A DNA stretch of 64,000 nt from an uncultured Draconibacterium sp. GTDB lineage: Bacteria > Bacteroidota > Bacteroidia > Bacteroidales > Prolixibacteraceae. Position numbers and translations under genes: made by a program. Below are positions 4,573-15,547 of the stretch, piece by piece (positions within the stretch are counted from its first letter, which is position 1; each line of letters begins with the position of its first letter). The notes under the pieces were generated by a model. It was not told the origin of the DNA, ran no database searches, and saw only the letters and a program-made list of their open reading frames with translations. The stretch lies in NCBI RefSeq assembly GCF_913060805.1, contig NZ_CAJXTC010000026.1:1-64000 (forward strand), in the 5' to 3' direction.

Positions 4573-4632
4573 GATCTACTTGTTTTATGATTTTGTGCTT
4601 AAAAGTAGGAAAAACAAGAGAAAGATAAAAAA

Positions 4633-4660
4633 GAAAGATCCGTTTTCGGATCTTTCTTAA
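4633..4660 (-). terminator. Terminator after the curlin-like gene at 4853
   Basis: AAGAAAGATCCG and CGGATCTTTCTT form a perfect 12-bp stem with a 4-base loop, followed on the minus strand by a run of T. It lies about 190 bases past the stop of the curlin-like gene and is the first terminator on that side of the csg locus. Confidence 0.8.
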
Positions 4661-4852: not shown

Positions 4853-6211
4853 TCAATGAGTCGTTAATGACGACTGTGTTACAGTTGCAGAATGCCAGTC
4901 TCCACTCTGGTCAATTACTGAAGATCCTCCACCTCCTTGCTGAACAGAAACGAAGTTGAAATTACCGGCAATATCCAAATCGGAATAATTGCCTCGTCCT
5001 TCCTGAAGGATTTTAACTCCATATTCATCAATGGCTGCAATAAAATTTCCGTTATAACTCCCGGATACGTCAATATCTGAGAAGTTTGATTTTCCTTTCT
5101 GATCACAACCAATTTCATTCAAATCACCAAGTAGGTCGATAGTGGAATTACTGCCATTACCTCTTTGAATCGAGGTAACCAGGTTCTCTAGGCCAGAAAC
5201 GACTTGCGAACCGTAATGGTGAGTACCTCTCTGATCGGCAAAAATACGGTTCCAATCTCCGTTAATTTCTTGTCCGGCAAAGTGGCCACCTTCACAGTTT
5301 TTTCCTTCGTTTCCAGAACCACCACGCTGTGTTATTGTGGCTTTATTATCATCGCCTTCAATTATCATTTCAGCAGTTGAGCCTTTTCCCATTTGTTTGA
5401 TTGCAACACCAACCGTTGGAACAAAAACATGAGATTCATCGTGCACAGGAGGAATTTCAGACGGTTTACCGCCATCATCGCTTTTCCCAACTGAAGAACC
5501 ACTTTTCCCCTTACCATGATCTGTTTCATCATGCTCGGTTTCTTCTTCTGATTCATCGTGAGGAAATTTTCCCTCGCCATGCTGTAAATAATGACTGCCG
5601 TTCCTGTTTCCACTGATAATCATTGTAGAATACTGGTCATTACCGCTTTGAGAAGTCCATGTTTCATTCAAATCACCTTGCAAATCCTGTTGGGCAAAAT
5701 GGTCTCTGCCAGCCTGATAAATCCATGCCTGATTGCTATTCCCATCAACAATTTGATATAACTGATGATAATCGCCATCCTGGTTAGGAACTCCAACATA
5801 CGACTCTTCTGATTCGATTCCCGGCTCATCATCAGGCGCAACTCCAATAATATTAAATTGGTTGCCATTACCTTTCTGAATCTGCCTGGAGTTGTTGTGC
5901 GAACCAAACTGATGTAAATAAGACAAATTACCTTTTCCGCCATAAGTTTGATCAACAACAGAGTGATTATCTTCGCCACCTTGCGAAACCATCTGTGTTT
6001 CATGGTCCTCAATCTCTCCTGATTGATTTACCCAGGCAAATTGTGCCTTATTCGAAATTTGTTGGATCAATATACTACTCATGTTGCCAACCTGATCCGT
6101 TTCTGCAAACTGGTCTTTACCACTTTGATTGACCGTCGTAAAATTAGTGGTTTGAGCCAACAGGCTAAATCCACAAAAAACCAACAGAATTAGCAATATT
6201 ATATTCTTCAT
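4853..6211 (-). CDS. Curlin-repeat secreted protein with His/Asp/Glu-rich insert
   Basis: I chose the ATG at 6211 because it gives a clean signal peptide (MKNIILLILLVFCGFSLLAQ); an upstream in-frame start at 6244 adds 11 unlikely residues. The mature protein (about 430 residues) is built of degenerate Q-x-G-x-x-N-x-x-x-x-x-Q units typical of curlin (CsgA/CsgB) beta-arcade amyloids, for example VNQSGKDQFAETDQVGN and VNQSGEIEDHETQMVSQGG. Residues of about 209-261 are a non-repeat stretch very rich in His, Asp, Glu, Gly and Ser. The gene starts 38 bases after the preceding curlin-like gene, so the two are probably co-transcribed. It could be a second major subunit or a surface-anchoring/nucleating subunit. 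Confidence 0.85.
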   Translation of the reverse strand: MKNIILLILLVFCGFSLLAQTTNFTTVNQSGKDQFAETDQVGNMSSILIQQISNKAQFAWVNQSGEIEDHETQMVSQGGEDNHSVVDQTYGGKGNLSYLHQFGSHNNSRQIQKGNGNQFNIIGVAPDDEPGIESEESYVGVPNQDGDYHQLYQIVDGNSNQAWIYQAGRDHFAQQDLQGDLNETWTSQSGNDQYSTMIISGNRNGSHYLQHGEGKFPHDESEEETEHDETDHGKGKSGSSVGKSDDGGKPSEIPPVHDESHVFVPTVGVAIKQMGKGSTAEMIIEGDDNKATITQRGGSGNEGKNCEGGHFAGQEINGDWNRIFADQRGTHHYGSQVVSGLENLVTSIQRGNGSNSTIDLLGDLNEIGCDQKGKSNFSDIDVSGSYNGNFIAAIDEYGVKILQEGRGNYSDLDIAGNFNFVSVQQGGGGSSVIDQSGDWHSATVTQSSLTTH

Positions 6212-6249
6212 AAACCTAAAGCTTTGATTATAGCTTATATACAATAATA

Positions 6250-7320
6250 TTAAGGCAGCTGAATAATACTTTGGCTTTGGGTTACTGTTGCACTATGACC
6301 ACTTCCGGTTTGGCTAACAGAGCTCCAATTAATAGCTCCAACCTGTTCCTGAGAAGCAAAGTTGCTACTACCATCTTGTGTAATAATTGCATAGTTTTTA
6401 CCCATTTCAAACAAATTTGTTTGTGTTTGATTGGCGGTGTTTCCATTACCTCCCAATTGAGATATTATTGCTTCGTTTACGAAGTCTCCCGGTTGACCGG
6501 CTAATGACGTCTGGTCTTGCATAGCGATATTAGATCCAGAGGCCTGTGTAATAGTTCCACTATTTTTATGACCTAACTGATCTTGCCAAGCATCATTGTC
6601 ATTGCCTGTCTGTTCAACAAAGGCTACACTTTTCCACGAAGCAACCGCTTGCGTTTGATAAGCTTCATTGCGGTTACCCGACTGCAATGCTGTTACCTCA
6701 TTCGCCCATCCATGCTGTTCTTGCTCTGCCCAGTTTTTATTTCCCGACTGGTTAATTAAAGCTGTATTAGAACTACCTACGTAGTCATCCGGCAGTTTGG
6801 TATCTTGAGCTTGTTTGGCCGTATTTAGATTGCCGGATTGCAAAATTGTAGCTTCGTTTGAATATTTAACCTGCATCTGTAAGGCGACATTATTATCACC
6901 ACCTTGCTCGATAGTTGCAACAGACGCACCCATTTGATGGTGAGGTCCTTGAAATTGCTCAGCCAGGTTATCATCGCCTGTTTGAGTGATATAAGCTTCT
7001 AATACTCCACCAGGACCTGCGTATGGTTCGCTTCTGTCATGGATTTGGGTAACGTTAGCATCATTTCGCTTTCCACTTTGCATAACTTCAGAATAATTGG
7101 CATCACCCGCGTCATCATCAACGAGTAGGTAGTTAATCTGGGTTACTGTCGCTTCATTTTTTTTGTTGCTTTGCTCAATCAAGGATTCATTGTCTTCTCC
7201 TTGCTGATCAACTGTTGAAGTTTGATTTGTTCCACTTTCAATAATTACAGATTTGTTTGTTTGCGCCATTACAATGGATGCAGCAAACACCATTACTAAT
7301 AAGAAAAATAACTTTTTCAT
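6250..7320 (-). CDS. Curlin (CsgA-like) amyloid subunit, second copy
   Basis: A 356-residue protein with signal peptide MKKLFFLLVMVFAASIVMAQ and about 330 residues of curlin repeats of the form Q-x-G-x-x-N-x-A-x-x-x-Q (QSGNLNTAKQAQ, QSGNKNWAEQEQ, QSGNRNEAYQTQ, QTGNDNDAWQDQ). It is more than twice the length of E. coli CsgA (151 residues), which is common for curlins of this phylum. It should be exported through the outer membrane by the CsgG pore encoded nearby and polymerise on the cell surface. It lies downstream of a REC-like/PAS/LuxR regulator, and its 5' leader resembles that of the other csgA-like gene at 12755-13948. It is probably an operon with the next gene. Confidence 0.9.
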   Translation of the reverse strand: MKKLFFLLVMVFAASIVMAQTNKSVIIESGTNQTSTVDQQGEDNESLIEQSNKKNEATVTQINYLLVDDDAGDANYSEVMQSGKRNDANVTQIHDRSEPYAGPGGVLEAYITQTGDDNLAEQFQGPHHQMGASVATIEQGGDNNVALQMQVKYSNEATILQSGNLNTAKQAQDTKLPDDYVGSSNTALINQSGNKNWAEQEQHGWANEVTALQSGNRNEAYQTQAVASWKSVAFVEQTGNDNDAWQDQLGHKNSGTITQASGSNIAMQDQTSLAGQPGDFVNEAIISQLGGNGNTANQTQTNLFEMGKNYAIITQDGSSNFASQEQVGAINWSSVSQTGSGHSATVTQSQSIIQLP

Positions 7321-7343
7321 AATTAAAATTTTAAGTTGTTAAT
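7321..7343 (-). promoter_or_regulatory. Conserved 5' leader of the second csgA-like gene
   Basis: Immediately upstream of the ATG the minus strand reads ATTAACAACTTAAAATTTTA. The same motif, with one extra T/A base, precedes the csgA-like gene at 13948. The shared leader suggests common control of translation or mRNA stability. Confidence 0.5.
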
Positions 7344-7631
7344 TAAAAGGATTATTTAAAACTCTATTTGAGTTTCGGATTTTATAAAAGTGTTTGGTTT
7401 TACTAAGTTGCATTTTTCCGATTTCAAGATTTACAATCAAAATTACATTAGGAAAACATACAAGTAAATAAGAGAATCATGAAGCAATAATCTTGTAAGC
7501 CCCAACACTAACAACTCAGCAAAAACATCTCTATAACAACCAGTTAGTATTTCATAAAAACAATAAGCACGAATAAAAAGCAAAGAGACTTTCAGATAAG
7601 AAATCAGAACTACGTGCAACAGGTATCGGTC
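7344..7631. other. Intergenic region upstream of the second csgA-like gene
   Basis: About 290 AT-rich bases between the terminator of the LuxR-type regulator gene and the csgA-like leader. It should contain the promoter of the two-gene curlin unit. A TAATTTTG box on the minus strand at 7438-7445 is the best candidate -7 element. No coding potential is seen. Confidence 0.5.
7438..7445 (-). promoter_or_regulatory. Candidate -7 box for the second curlin unit
   Basis: The minus strand reads TAATTTTG (TAnnTTTG consensus), about 118 bases upstream of the start at 7320. The nearest upstream TTG is at 15-base spacing, shorter than usual, so a regulator may be needed. Confidence 0.3.
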
Positions 7632-7634
7632 AAA

Positions 7635-7671
7635 AAAATACCGTATGAAAATATTATCATACGGTATTTTA
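7635..7671 (-). terminator. Terminator after the first REC-like/LuxR regulator
   Basis: AATACCGTATGA and TCATACGGTATT form a perfect 12-bp stem with a 7-base loop, followed on the minus strand by seven T. It lies 20 bases past the regulator stop codon and separates it from the curlin genes. Confidence 0.9.
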
Positions 7672-7689
7672 ATCTTTACAAAATCAATA

Positions 7690-8688
7690 TCAAACGTTCA
7701 ACATGTAGTTTTTTCCAAACATAAATACAGCCTTCATAATATTACCCGAGTCAGTTTTTTGAATAATGTTTGAGCGGTGTTTTTCAACGGTACGTTCCGA
7801 AATGCCTAACCGATCTGCAATTTGTTTAATGGGCACTCCCGTTGCCGATAATTGTAGCACCTGTCGCTCTCGCGCAGTTATTAAATTCGGATCAAGATAT
7901 TTCACCTCATTCTCATCGTTCAGATAATTAATTTCTGAAATTTGTTTTGTCTCATTTAAAGGAATAACAACGCCAATTATTTTTGATACGGAACCTCGTT
8001 TTTTTACATGCGAAAAGTATACGTTAAAATACTCTTTCTCCTTTCCGTGAATTCGAATTCGGTTTAGTCTGCAATCTTTTGTTAAACCATTCATAAATCG
8101 CGAAAGCTTTAACTCATCCTCATTTCCGGAATTAAAGGCGAATACTTCATTTAATAAATAACTCCCGTTTCGCTTGCTTGCCAAATCTACCAACTTATCA
8201 AATGTTTCGTTAGTTTGAGTAATACGTTTATCATCGGCAACAAATACGCCGTATGGAATCATTTTACAAATTGAGTCGAACTTAATAGCGCCATATGCTT
8301 TCCGTTCCATATTCTTAACCAATTGCTTCTGTATAATATTTAGAATACGCTCCTGATCGAATGGTGGAAATATAAAACTATCAATGCCTAATTCAACCGC
8401 AACAAAAAACTCGTTTTTGCGAAATTGATTAAAGATCATAATAAATGGTATTTCGTTTTTTAATATTTCGTTGTCGAGAATATTATAAACCTGGAACCCA
8501 TTTAACTCATTTATATCATAGAAGCAGATTATTAAATCAGGGAGCTCTTTCATTAGCTTTTGAATAGCTATCTCGATATTACTTACAAACGTTACATGAT
8601 AGTTTTCTTTAGCCAATACATCGATAAACATTTTACTTGATGCTTCCGATTCGCCAATCAGAAGCAGATTACTTTGGGTAGTTTTCAT
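7690..8688 (-). CDS. CsgD-like regulator: pseudo-receiver, PAS, LuxR HTH
   Basis: A 332-residue cytoplasmic protein. Residues 1-125 have the shape of a response-regulator receiver (PDLIICFYDINELNGFQVY), but the phosphoacceptor Asp position after PDLIIC is Phe, the N-terminal acidic pair is missing (LLLIGESE) and the Lys before PFD is Pro, so it should not be phosphorylated. Residues of about 140-255 are PAS-like. Residues of about 265-332 are a LuxR-type helix-turn-helix (LTARERQVLQLSATGVPIKQIADRLGISERTVEKHRSNI). It is paralogous to the regulator at 14534-15547. Both sit directly upstream of curlin-like genes, which suggests they control amyloid production as CsgD does in enterobacteria. Confidence 0.85.
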   Translation of the reverse strand: MKTTQSNLLLIGESEASSKMFIDVLAKENYHVTFVSNIEIAIQKLMKELPDLIICFYDINELNGFQVYNILDNEILKNEIPFIMIFNQFRKNEFFVAVELGIDSFIFPPFDQERILNIIQKQLVKNMERKAYGAIKFDSICKMIPYGVFVADDKRITQTNETFDKLVDLASKRNGSYLLNEVFAFNSGNEDELKLSRFMNGLTKDCRLNRIRIHGKEKEYFNVYFSHVKKRGSVSKIIGVVIPLNETKQISEINYLNDENEVKYLDPNLITARERQVLQLSATGVPIKQIADRLGISERTVEKHRSNIIQKTDSGNIMKAVFMFGKNYMLNV

Positions 8689-8808
8689 TTTAAATCCTCA
8701 TTTTTTATCTGATAGCAAATTACAAAAACGAAAAAGATTATGAAATACGTATTTTCTCTATATTTAACTCATTGACAGAATATAACACGACATAAAGAAC
8801 AAATAATA

Positions 8809-8816
8809 CAAATATA
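8809..8816 (-). promoter_or_regulatory. Candidate -7 box for the first regulator
   Basis: The minus strand reads TATATTTG, matching TAnnTTTG. It lies just after the csg operon terminator and about 120 bases upstream of the regulator ATG at 8688. No clear -33 box is seen. Confidence 0.3.
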
Positions 8817-8826
8817 TTATCACAAA

Positions 8827-8855
8827 AAAGAGGGAGCTCTAACAGCTCCCTCTTC
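8827..8855 (-). terminator. Terminator of the csgB-E-F-G-lipoprotein operon
   Basis: AGAGGGAGCT and AGCTCCCTCT form a perfect 10-bp stem with a 5-base loop, followed on the minus strand by a run of six T. It is 20 bases past the stop of the last operon gene. Confidence 0.9.
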
Positions 8856-8875
8856 CTAATAAAATGTACCGGAAA

Positions 8876-9520
8876 TTAGTTCTCACTCTGTGTTCTAAAA
8901 CTCCAGGTTGGACTGTTAGCCACCCTGCTTCCTTCGTATTTCGCTACAACATACCAGTAATATGTTGTATTGCTCTCTAATCCCGAAATAATTACTTCCT
9001 GATCCGAAAGATTCTCACCTGCCGAATTTTGTGTTGTTGAGTTCGCCCTAAAATAATATACATTATATTCTAAGTTTTTGCTATTATCTTCCTGATCGAC
9101 CTGCCACTGCATTGTTAACGACGTATTTTGATCAACAGCGCCGTTTCCCGGCACAGGATCGTAAATTGTAACCCAGCCAATATTTTTCTCATCTTTTAAA
9201 AGAAAGAAAGTAAGTGACGTGGTTTCATTATCGTACACTGCGACGCTCACTGTACTACTCAGGTAATCCTTCTTCCGTGCAGTTACGGCCAACTCTCCTT
9301 CAGCTACCTTATTAAACTCAAATACGCCATCGGTATTTGTAATTGTAGATGTACTTGCCGGGTTAGTGGCAATCTGCACACCGTCCAGCGGACCGTAAGT
9401 TTCTCCATCGAGGATCTGTCCCCGAATTGAACCGAACTTATCGATGTCAAGTTTTTCTTCTTCGCATGCAAACAACAGCACGCCAATAAAAAGAAGTAGT
9501 AAACAATTTATCTTGCTCAT
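8876..9520 (-). CDS. Lipoprotein with carboxypeptidase-like and FN3-like domains, last gene of csg operon
   Basis: A 214-residue protein with a lipoprotein signal and lipobox ending LLFAC (Cys19). Residues of about 30-105 look like a carboxypeptidase-regulatory-like beta-sandwich (GSIRGQILDGETYGPLDGVQIAT and TNTDGVFEFNKVAEGELAVTARKKDYLS). Residues of about 115-210 look like a fibronectin type III domain ending in SNTTYYWYVVAKYEGSRVANSPTWSFRT. It starts 11 bases after csgG and is the last gene before a strong terminator. It has no counterpart in the enterobacterial csg operons, so its place suggests a phylum-specific accessory of curli assembly, perhaps anchoring the fibre or the pore. That role is inference. 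Confidence 0.85.
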   Translation of the reverse strand: MSKINCLLLLFIGVLLFACEEEKLDIDKFGSIRGQILDGETYGPLDGVQIATNPASTSTITNTDGVFEFNKVAEGELAVTARKKDYLSSTVSVAVYDNETTSLTFFLLKDEKNIGWVTIYDPVPGNGAVDQNTSLTMQWQVDQEDNSKNLEYNVYYFRANSTTQNSAGENLSDQEVIISGLESNTTYYWYVVAKYEGSRVANSPTWSFRTQSEN

Positions 9521-9531
9521 TTATTTTGTTT

Positions 9532-10929
9532 TTAATTTTTACCCATATAAAATTTCAAACCCAGTTTAAATCCCCAAATATGGTCGTTAAACTGTCCGAC
9601 TGTTTCGCCATCATACCTGTCGGAGAACAGCTGGTTTACATATACTTTCCCCAATGCGGCAAACTTGTTTCCAAATAAATATTCAACTCCTGCACGATAC
9701 GAAACGTAAGGAATCAACCTTTTGTCCGACAAACCAACATTCGAGTCGAAATCATAATACGCGCCTCCCCCCACAGCAAAATGTGGCGAGAATTTACCTT
9801 CAGGATTTAGCAAATACATTAAACTCATATCGGCATAATATTCGTCAGATGTCATTAAGTCATCGATATGAATGCGCTGGTACCCGACATCGGTTTCCAG
9901 AAAGAAATTTTTGTGTAAGGCATATCCTAATTCCAATGAAGCTCCGGGACGAATGTAACTGGTAGAATAATCGCCGGTATAAAACTGCCCGGTCCCAAGA
10001 ACCGAGGCAAACATTTTTCCTCTCAGGTGCTGCTCAAATGGCCGCCCCATATGGTCTATATCTACCCTGTCTTCTTTTTCGGCCATGTAGTTTTGTATCT
10101 GCTCATCTTTAATCTCATCCTGATTTTCTAGGGTCCATAAATTATCCAAAACACCTTCAATTATCAGGCTGTGAACCGCTTTTTCAATAGCTTCAGTAAC
10201 TGCCAGTTCGGTAGGTTCATTATAGGTATAACCGGTTTCTGCTTCCAGCAGTCGTTTGTATTTTACATACCGGAAAACACCCATTGAAACTTCCTGCGAA
10301 AGGATGGATTTTGTAGTGTAAATAGTTTTCAGAATCTTACCATTACTGGTAGAAACAGCACGTAAATATATGCTCACACGATCTTCGCGGTATTGAGCCG
10401 AGGCATCGGTACCAAAATAGCGAACCCCTGCACCACCGGTGTAAATATTTGTTTCGTACGAAACAATTCCTCCTTCGAGCAAAACACCGGCAAACAAAAG
10501 CGGAGGCAACATTACTCCGTTATTTCCTTCGTACTGCTCGCGGCTCGACCGAATAATTTTTCGTTCATTCAGCAAGTTGCTGATGTTCTCTCGTTCAATA
10601 GGTACAAACCAACCAGATTCTTCCAATGCTCGCACAAGAATATTGGTAGCTCCCTGGGTAACTGCGGTAGACCAGTTGGCACCAACTTCCGACGCTTTGT
10701 ATTGCCCGGTCTGATCTCTGAATTTATACACAGCAACCACAATCGGCTCTTTGGGTTGAGGCAGATCAAGTAAATCCTTTTTCACCGGCGTTTCGGGACC
10801 AAGCTGCGCTTCACGTTTTTCGCCCAATGGCTGGTAGAAATACGGACTACATCCGGCGATAACAGATACAATTATACAGAACAAAAGTGTTCTGAAAATC
10901 AGTCTTTGAAGTTTTAACATTTCAACCAT
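9532..10929 (-). CDS. csgG: CsgG-family curli secretion pore with C-terminal beta-barrel-like extension
   Basis: The 465-residue product begins with a lipoprotein signal (lipobox VIAGC, Cys27) and a CsgG domain at about residues 55-275: VVAVYKFRDQTGQYK, ALEESGWFVPIERENISNLLNERKI, GGIVSYETNIYTGGAGVRYFG and DRVSIYLRAVSTSNGKIL all match CsgG. CsgG forms the nonameric outer-membrane channel for curli subunits. E. coli CsgG has 277 residues. Here about 180 more follow (from about 285), with alternating amphipathic strands and a final aromatic LKFYMGKN, like an outer-membrane beta-barrel domain. A second start at codon 4 is possible. It lies 7 bases after csgF and 11 before the lipoprotein gene. 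Confidence 0.95.
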   Translation of the reverse strand: MVEMLKLQRLIFRTLLFCIIVSVIAGCSPYFYQPLGEKREAQLGPETPVKKDLLDLPQPKEPIVVAVYKFRDQTGQYKASEVGANWSTAVTQGATNILVRALEESGWFVPIERENISNLLNERKIIRSSREQYEGNNGVMLPPLLFAGVLLEGGIVSYETNIYTGGAGVRYFGTDASAQYREDRVSIYLRAVSTSNGKILKTIYTTKSILSQEVSMGVFRYVKYKRLLEAETGYTYNEPTELAVTEAIEKAVHSLIIEGVLDNLWTLENQDEIKDEQIQNYMAEKEDRVDIDHMGRPFEQHLRGKMFASVLGTGQFYTGDYSTSYIRPGASLELGYALHKNFFLETDVGYQRIHIDDLMTSDEYYADMSLMYLLNPEGKFSPHFAVGGGAYYDFDSNVGLSDKRLIPYVSYRAGVEYLFGNKFAALGKVYVNQLFSDRYDGETVGQFNDHIWGFKLGLKFYMGKN

Positions 10930-10936
10930 ATCTGTC

Positions 10937-11365
10937 TTAGAAATAAGGTACTTCTACCGATGTTGTTGCCCCGGTTGAATTATCAACGATTGATATATTC
11001 AAACCGGTCCCTCCGTTCCCGATTTCAATTTGATAATCACCAAGAACATAAGTTCCTTCGTCTAAAGCATCTTCGCCAAACTGACGACTTACGATCTGCC
11101 TCGACAACTGGCTAAGGATTTGACGATTCAGACTTTCTGTAAAATTATCTACCGGATCGGAATTATAATAGCTACTGTACGAGCTGCTTTCGTCGGCCGG
11201 AGCCTCGTAGGTATCTTGCGCTTGCGCTGAACTCAAAAGCCAACTGTAATTATATGGACTTCCGCCAAAAGCGGGATTTTTAGGAGAATAGACAAAATCC
11301 TGGGCAAAAGAATACGAAATGCCCATTGCAAAAACTCCTAAAAGGATTAATATTTTTTTTCTCAT
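10937..11365 (-). CDS. csgF: Curli assembly factor CsgF
   Basis: A 142-residue exported protein (signal peptide ending YSFAQ). The mature N-terminus DFVYSPKNPAFGGSPYNYSWLLSSAQAQDTY matches the CsgF signature (F-x-NP-x-FGG-x-P-x-N, then LL-x-SAQAQ), the part known to insert into the CsgG channel. The C-terminal part (about 95-142) is beta-rich (YQIEIGNGGTGLNISIVDNSTGATTSVEV) as in the domain linking CsgF to the nucleator. The length is near that of E. coli CsgF (138). CsgF couples secretion to surface nucleation. It is in order csgE-csgF-csgG with 15 and 7 base gaps. Confidence 0.95.
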   Translation of the reverse strand: MRKKILILLGVFAMGISYSFAQDFVYSPKNPAFGGSPYNYSWLLSSAQAQDTYEAPADESSSYSSYYNSDPVDNFTESLNRQILSQLSRQIVSRQFGEDALDEGTYVLGDYQIEIGNGGTGLNISIVDNSTGATTSVEVPYF

Positions 11366-11380
11366 AATGTATGGTTTTGT

Positions 11381-11881
11381 TTAAAAAATGCCAGAACCTG
11401 CACGGTCAGCACCTTCCAATTGTTTTAAAATTGCTTCATAATTTTGTAAGTAAATTTGTGTGCGCGCAACCGCCTGCTGAGCAAGGGTTTCAACAATATC
11501 GCCCCGGGGTTGCAAAAATGATTGAAACACAAGTGTTTCGTTTATTTTTACCTGTATTTGAGTGGTGGTTAAGCGGTAAGGTTTTTCGGTAACAAAAATG
11601 GAATAGTTTTTTGCATTAGCCGGAGCCTCCCAGTCGCGGTAAAACAAATCGTAAAAATCTCGTCCACTTTTTGTTTTTGTTTCATCAACTAACAAGCCAT
11701 CAATCTCTAAATCCGCATCCCGACTTACCTTTTGTGCCTTTTCTTCCGTAATCTCCTTAATTAATTGTTTTAAATCGTCAGGAGCTTCTTTTATTTGTTT
11801 TGAAGCTTTAATCGTATCATTTTGAGCACTGCAAAAGCCAATGCAAACAAAGATCAGGAGTATAGAAAAAAGTGGTTTCAT
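11381..11881 (-). CDS. csgE: Curli secretion specificity factor CsgE
   Basis: A 166-residue exported protein (signal peptide ending GFCSAQ). The C-terminal 110 residues match CsgE: LEIDGLLVDETKTKSGRDFYDLFYRDWEAP, a central strand region, and QIKVNETLVFQSFLQPRGDIVETLAQQAVARTQIYL. CsgE caps the CsgG pore from the periplasm and directs curli subunits into it. It is somewhat longer than E. coli CsgE (129) owing to a charged N-terminal segment (residues 22-55). It starts one base after the csgB-like gene, consistent with translational coupling. Confidence 0.93.
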   Translation of the reverse strand: MKPLFSILLIFVCIGFCSAQNDTIKASKQIKEAPDDLKQLIKEITEEKAQKVSRDADLEIDGLLVDETKTKSGRDFYDLFYRDWEAPANAKNYSIFVTEKPYRLTTTQIQVKINETLVFQSFLQPRGDIVETLAQQAVARTQIYLQNYEAILKQLEGADRAGSGIF

Positions 11882-11882
11882 A

Positions 11883-12533
11883 TTATTGTGCGGGGAAATA
11901 AAAGTCGCTGTGCTTTAATATTAAACTCATTCCACCCGTTTGGGTAACTTTTATACCGGGTATGGCCGAATGATCGAGAATTAGTTCGAGATTATTATCC
12001 GCTCCTATTTGAGTTGCATCAACTGTTTTGGGCAATCGCTCGGTCCAGTTGTCGCCATTTCCCAATAAGGCAATTTCCATGGTATTGTCATCTCCAACTT
12101 GGTTAAGCAAATTCGATTTGGGCAAAATCCCTTCGTTATCGATATATGAATTAATGGTATTTCTGTTGCCTTTTTGATAGATTTCGGTAGCAGTAAGCAC
12201 TCCAACCGACCATGTGTTTGCCTGGTTGTTCTCTCCATCCTGAATAAGGGCTGTATAATGTCCGGATCCTTGCTGAATTATTCCGGCCTGATTTTCAGTC
12301 TGTAGCTGAAGAGAGAATATAGTATTGTTTAACAAACCATTTTGCTCCTGATTTACAACTATTGTGTTGGCATCGCCAACCTGGCCAATAATACTGTTGT
12401 TGTTTAACAGCAATCCATTATCGATAACGCCAACCTGCATCAATTCCAGCAAATGCTCAACCAGGTTCTCTTGTGCCTGAACATTTGCAAAACAACTCAT
12501 GAATAGAACGAAATAGAATATTTTCCTCAGCAT
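11883..12533 (-). CDS. csgB: Minor curlin-like protein, probable nucleator (CsgB-like)
   Basis: A 216-residue exported protein (signal peptide ending NVQAQ) with a short, diverged set of curlin repeats: GQVGDANTIVVNQEQNG, QQGSGHYTALIQDGENNQA, YQKGNRNTIN, NQVGDDNTMEIAL and TQIGADNNLELIL. It is shorter and less regular than the three large curlin-like proteins, and it is the first gene of the operon that encodes CsgE, CsgF and CsgG. Both facts fit the minor nucleating subunit CsgB. The gene name is by analogy; sequence alone does not separate CsgB from a small CsgA paralogue. Confidence 0.75.
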   Translation of the reverse strand: MLRKIFYFVLFMSCFANVQAQENLVEHLLELMQVGVIDNGLLLNNNSIIGQVGDANTIVVNQEQNGLLNNTIFSLQLQTENQAGIIQQGSGHYTALIQDGENNQANTWSVGVLTATEIYQKGNRNTINSYIDNEGILPKSNLLNQVGDDNTMEIALLGNGDNWTERLPKTVDATQIGADNNLELILDHSAIPGIKVTQTGGMSLILKHSDFYFPAQ

Positions 12534-12645
12534 AACTTTTTTATTTGTGGGTAAGGCCTAAAACATTTCAACTAAAATTACCATAATCAAACCGATCGGG
12601 CACTACTAAGTGTATACGTGTTTTCTGCAACTTTTACATTTTTAA

Positions 12646-12679
12646 TGGTTACCTCCCGGCATTTCACCGGGAGGACCAT
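12646..12679 (-). promoter_or_regulatory. Strong hairpin between the csgA-like gene and the csgB-E-F-G operon
   Basis: CCTCCCGG and CCGGGAGG form a perfect 8-bp GC-rich stem with a 7-base loop, extended by further near-complementary bases on both sides. The following T-run is weak. It may be a partial terminator or mRNA-stabilising hairpin that lets the subunit gene be expressed above the secretion genes. Confidence 0.6.
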
Positions 12680-12754
12680 TACATTATAATGCTTGAAGAC
12701 CTGATAGCTAATCAGGCTACTTCAATTGCTTTACGAAACACTTTCGTTTTAGCA

Positions 12755-13948
12755 CTAATTTTGAGTTACCGAAACCATGTTACCATTTCCAACCACTGAG
12801 TTTAAACTCATGTTACCATCAGTTCCCTGAAGAATATCCACAGTATTCATATTACCTGTAATTGAAACACCATCACGTGAATACCAGGTTGTACCAACAT
12901 GGTTCGACGAACCGTCTTGAGTAATTGTAACGTCATTCTCATCACCAGTAATGTTTCCTGAAACCATATTGTAATCACCGGTTTTTGTAATAATCACTGT
13001 ATTATCGTCAGAACTTGATCCCCAAGATGCTGCTACACCTAAACGAGTACGGTTACCACTACCGGTAACTTCTTCTTTCATTGAATTGTAAGAACCATAT
13101 TTAATACCGAACTCAGTGTAGTTAGAACTACCTATTTGCTTGATTTCTGAAACATTTTCATCGCCCATAGTTAAACCAAACATTGCCTGATTGGCGTCGC
13201 CTTCCTGCACAATGCTTACATTGTTCAGGTTCGATTCGTATGTAGGAATATCCTGGAATCCAACTTTAATTACTGCGGCATTTGAAACTCCTGTTTGGGC
13301 TTCATAAGTGTTATTATCATTACCATAAACTTTAATGTCGGCAGTGTTGCCTGCACCATCCTGATCAATACCATATGCAGCCTGATAAAATGGATTATTT
13401 CCGGAAATGTTACCATCTCCGATTTGAGTAATTTCGGCATTATTATAACCTCCGGCACTTTTGGCTGTGGCAAGGTTTTCGTTTCCAGTCTGCGTTACAG
13501 TCTGATTCGTATTTCCCTGAGTAGAATAAGTATAGGTATAGTTATCGTCACCGGTTTGAGTAACAATTGTTTTACTTGCACCTTGAGCCATACCTGAAGA
13601 AGCCCAGTTGTTATCACCCACCTGTTTTATTGTAATACTATTTTTGGCGTTAAACTGGCGAGCTTTAGCAAAGTTGCTTTTCCCTTCCTGATCAACATCA
13701 ACGAAGTTTGATTCTGTTGATGACAAAGTACGTTGAGAAACTTCTGATGCATTTTTTTCACCAGACTGATCAACAGTTGCAGTATTGTAACCATCTTCCT
13801 GTGTTATTACAGAGCCATTCTCTAAACCTGCCTGGTTTACTGTTGCTCCGTTTAAATCACCTTCTTGTGAAACTGTACTTGTATTGTTCTGTGCCATTGC
13901 AAAACCTGCCGTCAGAACCAATGCGAATAAGAATACTAATTTTTTCAT
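12755..13948 (-). CDS. csgA: Curlin (CsgA-like) amyloid subunit, main copy
   Basis: A 397-residue protein with signal peptide MKKLVFLFALVLTAGFAMAQ. The mature N-terminal half is regular curlin repeats (SQEGDLNGATVNQAGLENGS, TQEDGYNTATVDQSGEKNA, KQVGDNNWAS, TQTGDDNYTYTY). The C-terminal half keeps the G-x-x-N turns (GSSNYTEFG, GSGNRTRLG, TGDYNMVSGN, DGSSNHVG) but loses many of the Gln residues, so it may be less amyloidogenic. It should be secreted by CsgG and form the surface fibre. It sits between the second regulator and the csgB-E-F-G operon. The subunit name is by analogy; a second large copy is at 6250-7320. Confidence 0.88.
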   Translation of the reverse strand: MKKLVFLFALVLTAGFAMAQNNTSTVSQEGDLNGATVNQAGLENGSVITQEDGYNTATVDQSGEKNASEVSQRTLSSTESNFVDVDQEGKSNFAKARQFNAKNSITIKQVGDNNWASSGMAQGASKTIVTQTGDDNYTYTYSTQGNTNQTVTQTGNENLATAKSAGGYNNAEITQIGDGNISGNNPFYQAAYGIDQDGAGNTADIKVYGNDNNTYEAQTGVSNAAVIKVGFQDIPTYESNLNNVSIVQEGDANQAMFGLTMGDENVSEIKQIGSSNYTEFGIKYGSYNSMKEEVTGSGNRTRLGVAASWGSSSDDNTVIITKTGDYNMVSGNITGDENDVTITQDGSSNHVGTTWYSRDGVSITGNMNTVDILQGTDGNMSLNSVVGNGNMVSVTQN

Positions 13949-13972
13949 TTTAAAATTTTTAAGTTGTTAATA
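13949..13972 (-). promoter_or_regulatory. Conserved 5' leader of the csgA-like gene
   Basis: The minus strand immediately upstream of the ATG reads ATTAACAACTTAAAAATTTT, nearly identical to the leader of the csgA-like gene at 7320. It is not seen upstream of other genes in the window. Confidence 0.5.
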
Positions 13973-14026
13973 ATTTGGATGTTACATTTAATAATCCCGA
14001 GAGGATTCAGGATTAGTTTCCGGAAT

Positions 14027-14048
14027 AACTTTAGCGTAGTCTAAAGTT
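14027..14048. promoter_or_regulatory. Inverted repeat in the csgA-like promoter region
   Basis: AACTTTAG (14027-14034) and CTAAAGTT (14041-14048) form a perfect 8-bp inverted repeat with a 6-base spacer, about 80 bases upstream of the csgA-like start. Dyad symmetry and position fit an operator for a dimeric LuxR-type regulator, such as those encoded on either side. Confidence 0.45.
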
Positions 14049-14302
14049 CTGCGGAACAGTTGGGGATAACCGTTTTCTACGTCGCTTTGCGAAACGATTC
14101 CTTGTTTCTTGTCAGGGAATTTTATGATTCTTCATTATTCAGTTTATTTAATTTTATTTATGTATTATTAAATTAATAAGCATATGTTGCCTCGTAAAGG
14201 ATCTATCCTTTTTATTTTTTATTATTTACAATGGATTTTGATTAAACCTAAAGCGTAGAAAATACCCCTATTTTTTAACATCTTTAGATGTATTAATGAC
14301 AA

Positions 14303-14343
14303 AAATCCATACCACGCGGTAACTTTTTACCCGGTATAGATTT
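14303..14343 (-). terminator. Terminator-like hairpin after the second regulator
   Basis: Nested arms AAATC-c-ATACC / GGTAT-a-GATTT and GGTAA / TTACC fold into one long hairpin with small mismatches. On the minus strand the stem ends in a run of five T. It lies 190 bases past the regulator stop codon. Confidence 0.6.
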
Positions 14344-14533
14344 AATGGAGGTAGATTTCAATAATTCTTCCTTTTTATATTATCAGCAAGCTACCTTCTG
14401 TTAGTCCGGCACTCGCGATAAATTAAACTTTCGCTTAGGGATGCTAATCATTTAATTACGATTCAAAAGTAAACGTTGATAAAATTTTGCGCAATACGTA
14501 AATACCGCCACTCAATAAATCCAATACGCAATA

Positions 14534-15547
14534 TCACGTATCCTGGAGTTTTTGACTCATGCCGTATACCTTGCCAATGGCTTCAATAATATTCATTGAA
14601 TCTGTTTTTCGCATAATATTCGAGCGGTGTTTCTCCACCGTCCGCTGCGAAATTCCTAATTCGGCAGCAATTAGCTTAATGGGGGTTCCTTTGCCCGATA
14701 TTTTTAAAATATCGTACTCTCTCGAGGTTAACTCAAAATCAGCCGGTTGTTCCTGTTTTGTTTCAGATAAAACTTTCTGATCATTGCCGGAAAATGAATT
14801 AGCAGTTTGATCCAACCGAACCTCTACTTGTATAAGCAAACGGTTAACTACAAAATTCGAAATATTAGAAATGTACAAATTCGTACGATACTCATTCCCG
14901 CCTTTCAATTGCACATCCGAAACGGTACAATCGTTGGTCAGTCCTTTTAAACACCTGCAAAATTGTTTTTGCTGCTCGGGAAATTCACTGAAATCAAAAA
15001 TTTCTTTTAATCCCGGCAGGCTCAAATTTTTGTCAAAACCCATTGTCTGATAAAACGCCGGGTTGGCACGTTCAATCCTATCGGTTTCGCAAACCAACAT
15101 TCCGATTGGCGAGGTAACAAAAAGCTTTTCGAAAGTAGAGCGCTCAAATGCTTTAAGTTTATCTATTTTTTCGAACAACAGCTTTAGTTTTGTAACTATA
15201 CGCTTTTCGTTGAGTGGCGTAAAGATAAAATTATCGACTCCGAGCTCCAGCCCCATCATTATTTCATCCGAGTCGTAATTGTCGACAACTACAACATACG
15301 GAGTTACACAATTTAATGTGGTACGACGCAATAAATTGTAGGTTTGATAAGCATCGTAATCGAGAAAATTGTGACTACAAATGATTAGATCGGGAGAATA
15401 CTCAATAATTTTTTGAACGGCTGCCTGAATTGTTACAGCCCGTGTCACACGATATTTGTGTGTTTTCAGAATACTGCAAAACTGCCGGAACAGATCATCA
15501 TCGGGCATGTTGAGCAATATCAACTTGTCTCGTTGCATTTGGTTCAT
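14534..15547 (-). CDS. CsgD-like regulator: pseudo-receiver, PAS, LuxR HTH (second copy)
   Basis: A 337-residue cytoplasmic protein paralogous to the regulator at 7690-8688. The receiver-like region (about 8-130) contains PDLIICSHNFLDYDAYQTYNLL: the phosphoacceptor Asp position is Ser and the conserved Lys is Thr (FIFTPLNEKRI), so phosphotransfer is unlikely. A PAS-like domain spans about 145-260, and both copies share a GLT-[KN]-DC motif there. A LuxR-type HTH (LTSREYDILKISGKGTPIKLIAAELGISQRTVEKHRSNIM) ends the protein. It lies directly upstream of the csgA-like gene and is read in the same direction, suggesting control of that locus. What ligand or partner the PAS and pseudo-receiver domains sense is unknown. 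Confidence 0.85.
   Translation of the reverse strand: MNQMQRDKLILLNMPDDDLFRQFCSILKTHKYRVTRAVTIQAAVQKIIEYSPDLIICSHNFLDYDAYQTYNLLRRTTLNCVTPYVVVVDNYDSDEIMMGLELGVDNFIFTPLNEKRIVTKLKLLFEKIDKLKAFERSTFEKLFVTSPIGMLVCETDRIERANPAFYQTMGFDKNLSLPGLKEIFDFSEFPEQQKQFCRCLKGLTNDCTVSDVQLKGGNEYRTNLYISNISNFVVNRLLIQVEVRLDQTANSFSGNDQKVLSETKQEQPADFELTSREYDILKISGKGTPIKLIAAELGISQRTVEKHRSNIMRKTDSMNIIEAIGKVYGMSQKLQDT

Follow-up and report, generated by a model that had tools for sequence, protein, structure and literature searches.

How is the production of curli fibres controlled in a locus where a single export machine stands beside several curlin genes and two regulator genes? This question is raised by positions 4853-15547 of the 64,000-nucleotide (nt) stretch analysed here (the window; contig NZ_CAJXTC010000026.1), which hold a curli (type VIII secretion) locus of a Draconibacterium-group genome. 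The locus consists of ten genes, all on the minus strand, open and complete, in the order regulator (RegA, 14534-15547), curlin (csgA1), csgB-like, csgE, csgF, csgG, lipoprotein, second regulator (RegB, 7690-8688) and two more curlins (csgA2 and a third); RegB, csgA2 and the third curlin are referred to as unit 2. The order and coordinates had been given in an initial annotation and are borne out by clear family matches. Pfam detects the parts by which a curli locus is recognised, namely Curlin_rpt in the three csgA-like proteins and the csgB-like protein (E 3e-33, 1.8e-31, 1.3e-17 and 2.3e-6), CsgE (2.1e-20), CsgF (8e-44) and CsgG (3.8e-66). Functional amyloids need to be produced in the right amount and at the right place. 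The type of locus is known but its control region is unusual, and we consider it fairly probable that one exporter is combined with an accessory RegB unit and a leader RNA controlling the main csgA. If so, the combination of phosphorylation-independent regulators with a leader RNA specific to the main curlin would represent a distinct form of curli control outside the Gammaproteobacteria.

The strongest new observation of the analysis is a 116-nt RNA-like leader (13989-14104, minus strand) between RegA and csgA1, which was found by aligning the stretches before csgA and is missing from the initial annotation. It has three helical domains and a kissing helix, and its 3' end is 40 nt before the csgA1 ATG. 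A first RNA model was built from nine seed sequences, and the alignment used below, A5, contains 13 members. In A5, 96.1% of 441 cells are paired compared with 32-46% in slid controls, and both sides have changed in 25 of 34 pairs (shuffle mean 10.3, with 0 of 500 shuffles as high), though as A5 was fitted to a structure these nested-pair counts lean towards that structure. RNAalifold, run on A5 with no structure given, returned four of five nested helices (25 pairs, 22 with changes on both sides), but missed the short hairpin located within helix 1. All 13 members have GRCGYAG, which in each of them pairs with a hairpin loop to form the kissing helix, a helix outside the model; U-A to C-G double changes are seen there in three members, L068 and both Seramator copies, which represent two lineages. 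When folding was compared with shuffles, the window leader gave z -3.38 and four other members z -1.41 to -2.26. These patterns support a conserved tertiary-type RNA fold, which would be transcribed as the 5' untranslated region of csgA1. An alternative pairing of a CCCC linker with helix 4, judged by eye, is not conserved and was set aside. Rfam searches with cmscan gave only chance-level matches over 12.5 kb around the locus (E up to 1) and matches far below gathering scores for three leaders (window, L060 and one Seramator copy; E up to 10), and a scan of eight small loci at the gathering threshold gave no match.

Genomes of relatives were used to follow the leader and the locus. CsgF is present in 27 of 199 such genomes and, in a sample of 393 from the order, in 7 (own genome counted in both), and loci were compared over up to 20 kb around csgF in 26 other genomes, a few of them on short contigs. 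A further 80 named loci from one scan were added, kept out of 453 confirmed matches, and eleven loci duplicating others were dropped before trees and counts. Of 120 genomes searched with the first RNA model, 12 gave hits: ten of the 12 same-genus genomes with csg genes, where a leader lies at the csg locus in every case, and G045 and G148, with weak matches. Draconibacterium orientale (G005) was recovered even though it is outside the seed, and a second leader copy was found in G026. With a second model, applied to 39 genomes, the leader was found in 10/12 same-genus csg-positive and 0/17 same-genus csg-negative genomes, with two weak hits (G045 and G090) among 10 genomes of other genera. The two csg-positive misses, D. 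sediminis (G002) and D. mangrovi (G009), have only a short stretch from RegA to csgB, with no csgA in it. Searches of more than 40 genomes used stricter filters, with which weak members can be missed. Across 393 genomes of the order, the leader was recovered from the own genome and, in two copies, from G347, with a single weak hit besides. A search of 120 relatives of G347 recovered G347 itself, again with one weak hit, and a search of 395 genomes of the phylum recovered the own genome alone. G347 is taken to be Seramator thermalis, its scores and spacing being equal to those of L072. Among 100 csg or regulator loci, seed loci excluded, only the two Seramator copies and a doubtful one at L193 were found. 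Both Seramator copies precede curlin genes, and the second copy of G026 precedes a gene for a 1270-amino acid (aa) repeat protein.

Several weaker candidates were not counted as members. These are L060 5049-5147 (32.7 bits), which is inside a curlin gene, L194 in G148 (27.3 bits), apparently in a repeat-rich stretch, L067 7276-7395 (19.1 bits), and hits in G308 (25.9 bits), G539 (26.3 bits) and G090 (23.9 bits). The doubtful copy at L193 in G045 (25.8-30.1 bits), the first arm of which does not fit, is likewise outside the count of 13; it is located beside a regulator gene, 45 nt before the gene for a large protein that looks secreted. In D. orientale (L062 6282-8325), a transposase-like open reading frame (ORF) of 302 aa (6472-7380, minus strand) lies between the leader and the csgA frame, and the leader is therefore cut off from its curlin. 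An ATG at similar spacing follows this leader, within the region of the transposase-like ORF.

The leader probably helps to control the amount of fibre made, and as part of the main csgA mRNA it would most likely set translation or stability. In 12 of the 13 members its 3' end is 29-51 nt before the start codon, and no U run, read directly, follows the last helix. The near-fixed spacing, the missing U run and the location on the product expected to be most abundant would also suit an element that senses no signal and passively stabilises the mRNA, or enhances translation, of an abundant protein. The kissing loop conserved in every member exceeds the needs of a plain stabilising hairpin, and we regard a purely passive role as conceivable and short of probable. 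A structure acting at the DNA level, such as a site at which recombination or a mobile element relocates curlin genes, would account for otherwise similar loci that differ in curlins and regulators, and for the joint absence of csgA1 and the element from D. sediminis and D. mangrovi. However, each same-genus csg locus with the element has a single copy at near-fixed distance from a start codon, and the pairing pattern is that of RNA, making this explanation very improbable. A short ORF of 10-17 codons ends exactly at helix 1 in seven of the ten same-genus csg leaders (L053, L057, L058, L060, L061, L062 and L067), the window not among them, and may encode a leader peptide. With one Seramator copy it is seen in 8 of 13 members, which as relatives are not independent; the shuffle rate is 6-20% each.

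The products of both regulator genes contain Pfam Response_reg and GerE/LuxR domains, and thus a receiver and a LuxR-type helix-turn-helix (HTH); a PAS domain is supported by Pfam in RegA only, the middle of RegB being PAS-like. The receivers are degenerate. In the columns for the acidic pair, phospho-Asp, Thr/Ser and Lys, RegA has M-P-D, S, V and T and RegB has G-E-S, F, F and P, and the residues of a phosphorylated response regulator are found in neither. The phospho-Asp is gone in 16 of 16 regulators of same-genus csg loci. Canonical receivers occur in 8 of 36 csg-linked regulators, all from other Prolixibacteraceae; in Cyclobacteriaceae, 12 of 12 regulators are without the acidic pair and Thr/Ser, and six of these 12 retain the aligned Asp. 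Regulators with degenerate receivers, four of them from non-csg loci, are united in a single clade that holds 32 of the 47 rows (support 100/100). A search with an H-box pattern found no histidine kinase within 2.5 kb of RegA or RegB and a kinase-like neighbour for 2 of the 36 csg-linked regulators. RegA and RegB would be described best as orphan LuxR-type regulators that no longer take phosphate. An AlphaFold2 model of RegB (mean predicted local distance difference test score 76.9, predicted template modelling score 0.45) suggests that the N-terminus is receiver-like, the middle mixed and PAS-like, and the C-terminus helical, with secondary structure judged by eye.

CsgD is a regulator with a LuxR-type HTH behind a receiver-like domain, adjoining the curli genes. 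RegA and RegB share this arrangement and location, but have an extra PAS domain (PAS-like in RegB) and have lost the receiver pocket, and CsgD was not among the best 25 of 58 and best 25 of 72 models for the regulators. They may be the stand-in for CsgD in the Draconibacterium group, probably binding a common GAAATTACGTATTTC-like box.

This likely regulator box, a candidate on sequence grounds, was counted by its core, [AT][TAC]ACGTATT. In the window, TTACGTATT (14493-14501, minus strand) is between RegA and csgA1, and the palindromic AATACGTATT (8744-8753, minus strand) is 56 nt upstream of RegB. Of 12 regions running from the first regulator to whichever comes next, gene or leader, 9 contain the core (0.71 on average in shuffles, never more than 4). 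It is also present in 5 of 9 unit-2 flanks, in three cases immediately upstream of RegB (0.28 in shuffles, at most 2), and in 2 of 3 non-csg regulator loci (0.13 in shuffles, at most 2). WTACGTATT has 6 matches in the window where 1.49 are expected, a number reached by 3 of 100 shuffles. A second motif, TAnnTTTG, which we take to be a form of the Bacteroidota -7 element, is 106-131 nt upstream of the ATG in 5 of 5 unit-2 curlins from four genomes; in the window it is TAATTTTG (7438-7445, minus strand), 125 nt upstream of the csgA2 ATG. None of 11 csg leaders (ten same-genus and one from Seramator) has this motif in the 300 nt preceding the RNA, and the second leader copy in G026 has it twice. 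A sigma-70-type scan over 16 kb gave 51 sites compared with 48.2 in shuffles, and no promoter is therefore claimed from it.

A number of these observations count against a leader-controlled csgA1 and a separately promoted unit 2 under box-binding regulators. With 78.8 bits, the window leader scores lowest among the nine seed members, and scans of other Bacteroidota csg loci did not find the leader in most of them, which means that it is not needed for curli as such. TAnnTTTG is not enriched overall (10 seen, 8.65 expected), and only its placement before all five unit-2 curlins favours it as a promoter-like site. The box was spotted by eye and counted afterwards, on related sequences; the control of 0 of 7 matches upstream of first regulators says little because just 0.27 were expected there; and the loose form of the box is barely over-represented genome-wide, with 78 matches compared with 60 for a reversed control.

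The initial annotation had proposed that unit 2 arose by duplication and divergence of a regulator-curlin unit. The two regulators are homologous, as it had supposed. When RegB was used as query in its own genome, a match run in this one direction, RegA was the sole strong full-length match (32% identity, E 1.5e-49; next 1.3e-8), and both regulators precede curlins, as would be expected had one unit been duplicated locally and diverged to give two fibre types. However, when the 36 csg-linked regulators are placed in one tree, the upstream regulators of D. sediminis, D. mangrovi, G030, G003 and G008 group with RegA, and RegB stands apart with its three orthologues. Approximately unbiased (AU) tests rejected a clade of the window RegA and RegB alone (p 7e-71), a clade of both regulators of the four RegB-carrying genomes (p 2.3e-5), and that set with G030 added (p 0.015). 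The set with G030 and G008 was not rejected on the first tree (p 0.13) and was rejected when eleven more regulators, including canonical ones, were added (p 0.0056). With the G006 regulator added to the enlarged set, the constraint was not rejected (p 0.24), with which an old split is compatible. On the enlarged tree RegB is at the base of the degenerate-receiver clade, where its placement lacks resolution, and its exact place is unsure because it is on a long branch. A split of RegA and RegB within the four-genome clade is excluded, and any such split must therefore be old.

The curlins lead to the same result. The csgA1 and csgA2 products are 27% identical, and among 221 curlin or csgB-like sequences csgA2 is 65th in the list of csgA1 and csgA1 59th in that of csgA2. 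By length-normalised score, csgA1 is matched best by the Seramator curlin that follows the lipoprotein (46% over 252 aa), csgA2 by the main csgA of G029 (52%) and the third curlin by the third main curlin of G034 (56%); the nearest relatives of csgA2 and the third curlin are thus curlins in the main position of other species. The leader peptide said to be shared by csgA1 and csgA2 does match at 11 of 20 residues, but 25% of 666 other pairs from relatives match as well, and the likeness, common family-wide, is uninformative. Unit 2 also has no leader RNA. The initial annotation had itself named the result that would refute it, a lack of closest kinship between the two regulators or between the two subunit genes, and neither pair is closest, by the trees for the regulators and by the similarity ranks for the csgA-like genes. 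Duplication of a regulator and curlin within the four-genome clade is ruled out by the trees and similarity ranks, and local duplication as the source of two fibre types is already largely refuted and highly unlikely.

What does stand is the presence of two curlin sets with differing control regions and one export machine. One CsgE-F-G machine would export several different curlins, and RegB, csgA2 and the third curlin are most likely an accessory subunit set under different control, a module feeding the one CsgG exporter. As unit 2 is without the leader RNA and has a promoter-like site of its own, its curlins could differ from csgA1 in the conditions or amounts of production. The extra curlins might instead co-assemble into one mixed fibre, unit 2 providing dosage or variety and RegB having a minor part. 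This would fit with the one exporter and one csgB-like gene, with the relative L068, which has five curlins in a single unit, and with the multiple csgA/B copies described in the part of Dueholm 2012 (PMC3521004) drawn on here. On the other side are the separate promoter-like and leader arrangements, and the conservation of RegB, which is 80-89% identical between the window and three other species whereas RegA drops to 50% in G003, indicating that RegB has been kept. We regard a single mixed fibre as somewhat unlikely and retain an accessory, separately controlled unit 2.

Comparison across relatives places this unit in a restricted group. RegB orthologues were found only in the window, D. sediminis, D. 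mangrovi and G003 (4 of the 12 csg-positive same-genus genomes), which form one clade on the CsgE-F-G tree (100/99). The unit 2 of G003 (L067 12542-18711) also has a second csgB-like gene (240 aa) and two additional curlins, one of 375 aa and one of 611 aa that is encoded on the opposite strand. The order regulator, curlin(s), B, E, F, G and lipoprotein is repeated in Prolixibacteraceae and some Cyclobacteriaceae; several Algoriphagus loci have a single regulator positioned after the lipoprotein, and many other csg loci have no such regulator within the stretch examined. A homologue of the lipoprotein follows csgG, or further curlins behind csgG, in most of the loci compared. On the midpoint-rooted CsgE-F-G tree, the branch holding the same-genus loci also holds G041, from another genus, and five Cyclobacteriaceae loci and one Seramator locus are nested inside it, which points to transfer of the locus between families. 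The locus suggests a lasting export core with subunits and regulators exchanged around it. The csg cores of G030 and D. orientale are very similar, and their regulators are from different clades.

The 12 same-genus csg loci share one genomic site, with a CoA-transferase gene on one side and ferritin and RelA on the other (for G026 the flanking genes are in two adjoining stretches). The regulator family is also found at the same site in G045, G016 and G006, none of which is among the 27 genomes with CsgF. The family regulator adjoins large proteins that look secreted in G045 and G016, and none is alongside in G006. In G045 (L193 3428-11844), it is accompanied by a secreted-looking protein of 2068 aa and the doubtful leader RNA. 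G026 has a different second regulator of the same family, also degenerate, in the stretch adjoining its csg locus (L192 413-10209), together with the second leader RNA and two repeat proteins of 1270-1298 aa. These two appear to be type IX cargo; the type IX sorting ends, both here and in the G045 protein, were judged by eye. Tentatively, the leader could belong to a new signal-responsive RNA class, riboswitch-like or protein-controlled and perhaps with an upstream short-ORF sensor, that would gate amyloid and other matrix proteins and be paired with a phosphorylation-free regulator family now located beside curli or large secreted repeat proteins.

Compared with the curli system encoded by csgBAC-csgDEFG, the curlin repeats, CsgE, CsgF and CsgG are common to both. 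Here, there is no csgC match at the locus, regulators of the REC-PAS-LuxR type replace csgD, several curlins are present, a structured leader precedes csgA and a lipoprotein gene follows csgG. The portion of Dueholm 2012 (PMC3521004) used describes many csgA/B copies and no csgC in Bacteroidetes loci, reports csgD there only in Spirosoma, and gives horizontal transfer only a minor role. The locus described here shares the several csgA/B copies and the absence of csgC, and differs from that portion of the account in the regulator family at the locus and in the Cyclobacteriaceae and Seramator csgEFG sets nested among same-genus ones. Tandem riboswitches for glycine and cyclic di-GMP have been linked to csgG (PMC9481103, as far as the section consulted goes), likewise placing a structured RNA next to a curli gene; here the gene is a different one, csgA1, and Rfam matches are at chance level. 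No description of this leader or of its pairing with the regulators was found in the part of the matching titles and abstract openings covered, a scope that leaves most subscription journals outside and is no proof of absence.

The remaining features of the locus, all on the minus strand, are as follows. Upstream to downstream, csgA1 (397 aa) is at 12755-13948, the csgB-like gene (216 aa) at 11883-12533, csgE at 11381-11881, csgF at 10937-11365 and csgG at 9532-10929, its product having a C-terminal OMP_b-brl-like extension that is weak and below the cut-off. The lipoprotein gene (8876-9520) predicts CarboxypepD_reg and fn3 domains by Pfam, and csgA2 (356 aa) is at 6250-7320. The third curlin (4853-6211) probably starts at ATG 6211, giving 452 aa, rather than at a TTG at 6244. 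NCBIfam CsgA and CsgB models match the csgA-like and csgB-like proteins of the locus only below cut-off, so that the A and B labels are positional. CsgC had no match among the ten locus proteins, the rest of the genome not being searched. When the own genome was searched for curlins, the five repeat matches obtained were all within csgA1 and csgA2; the csgB-like gene and the third curlin fall below its single-repeat threshold, so weak curlins elsewhere could escape it. A terminator-like hairpin downstream of the third curlin (4631-4658) is one of 16 such sites in 16 kb, where 12.2 are expected by chance. Between csgA1 and the csgB-like gene, a hairpin of CCTCCCGG and CCGGGAGG (12652-12674), read directly and with no U run, may protect the csgA mRNA and set the csgA:csgB ratio, and a GC hairpin is present at the matching position in several relatives.

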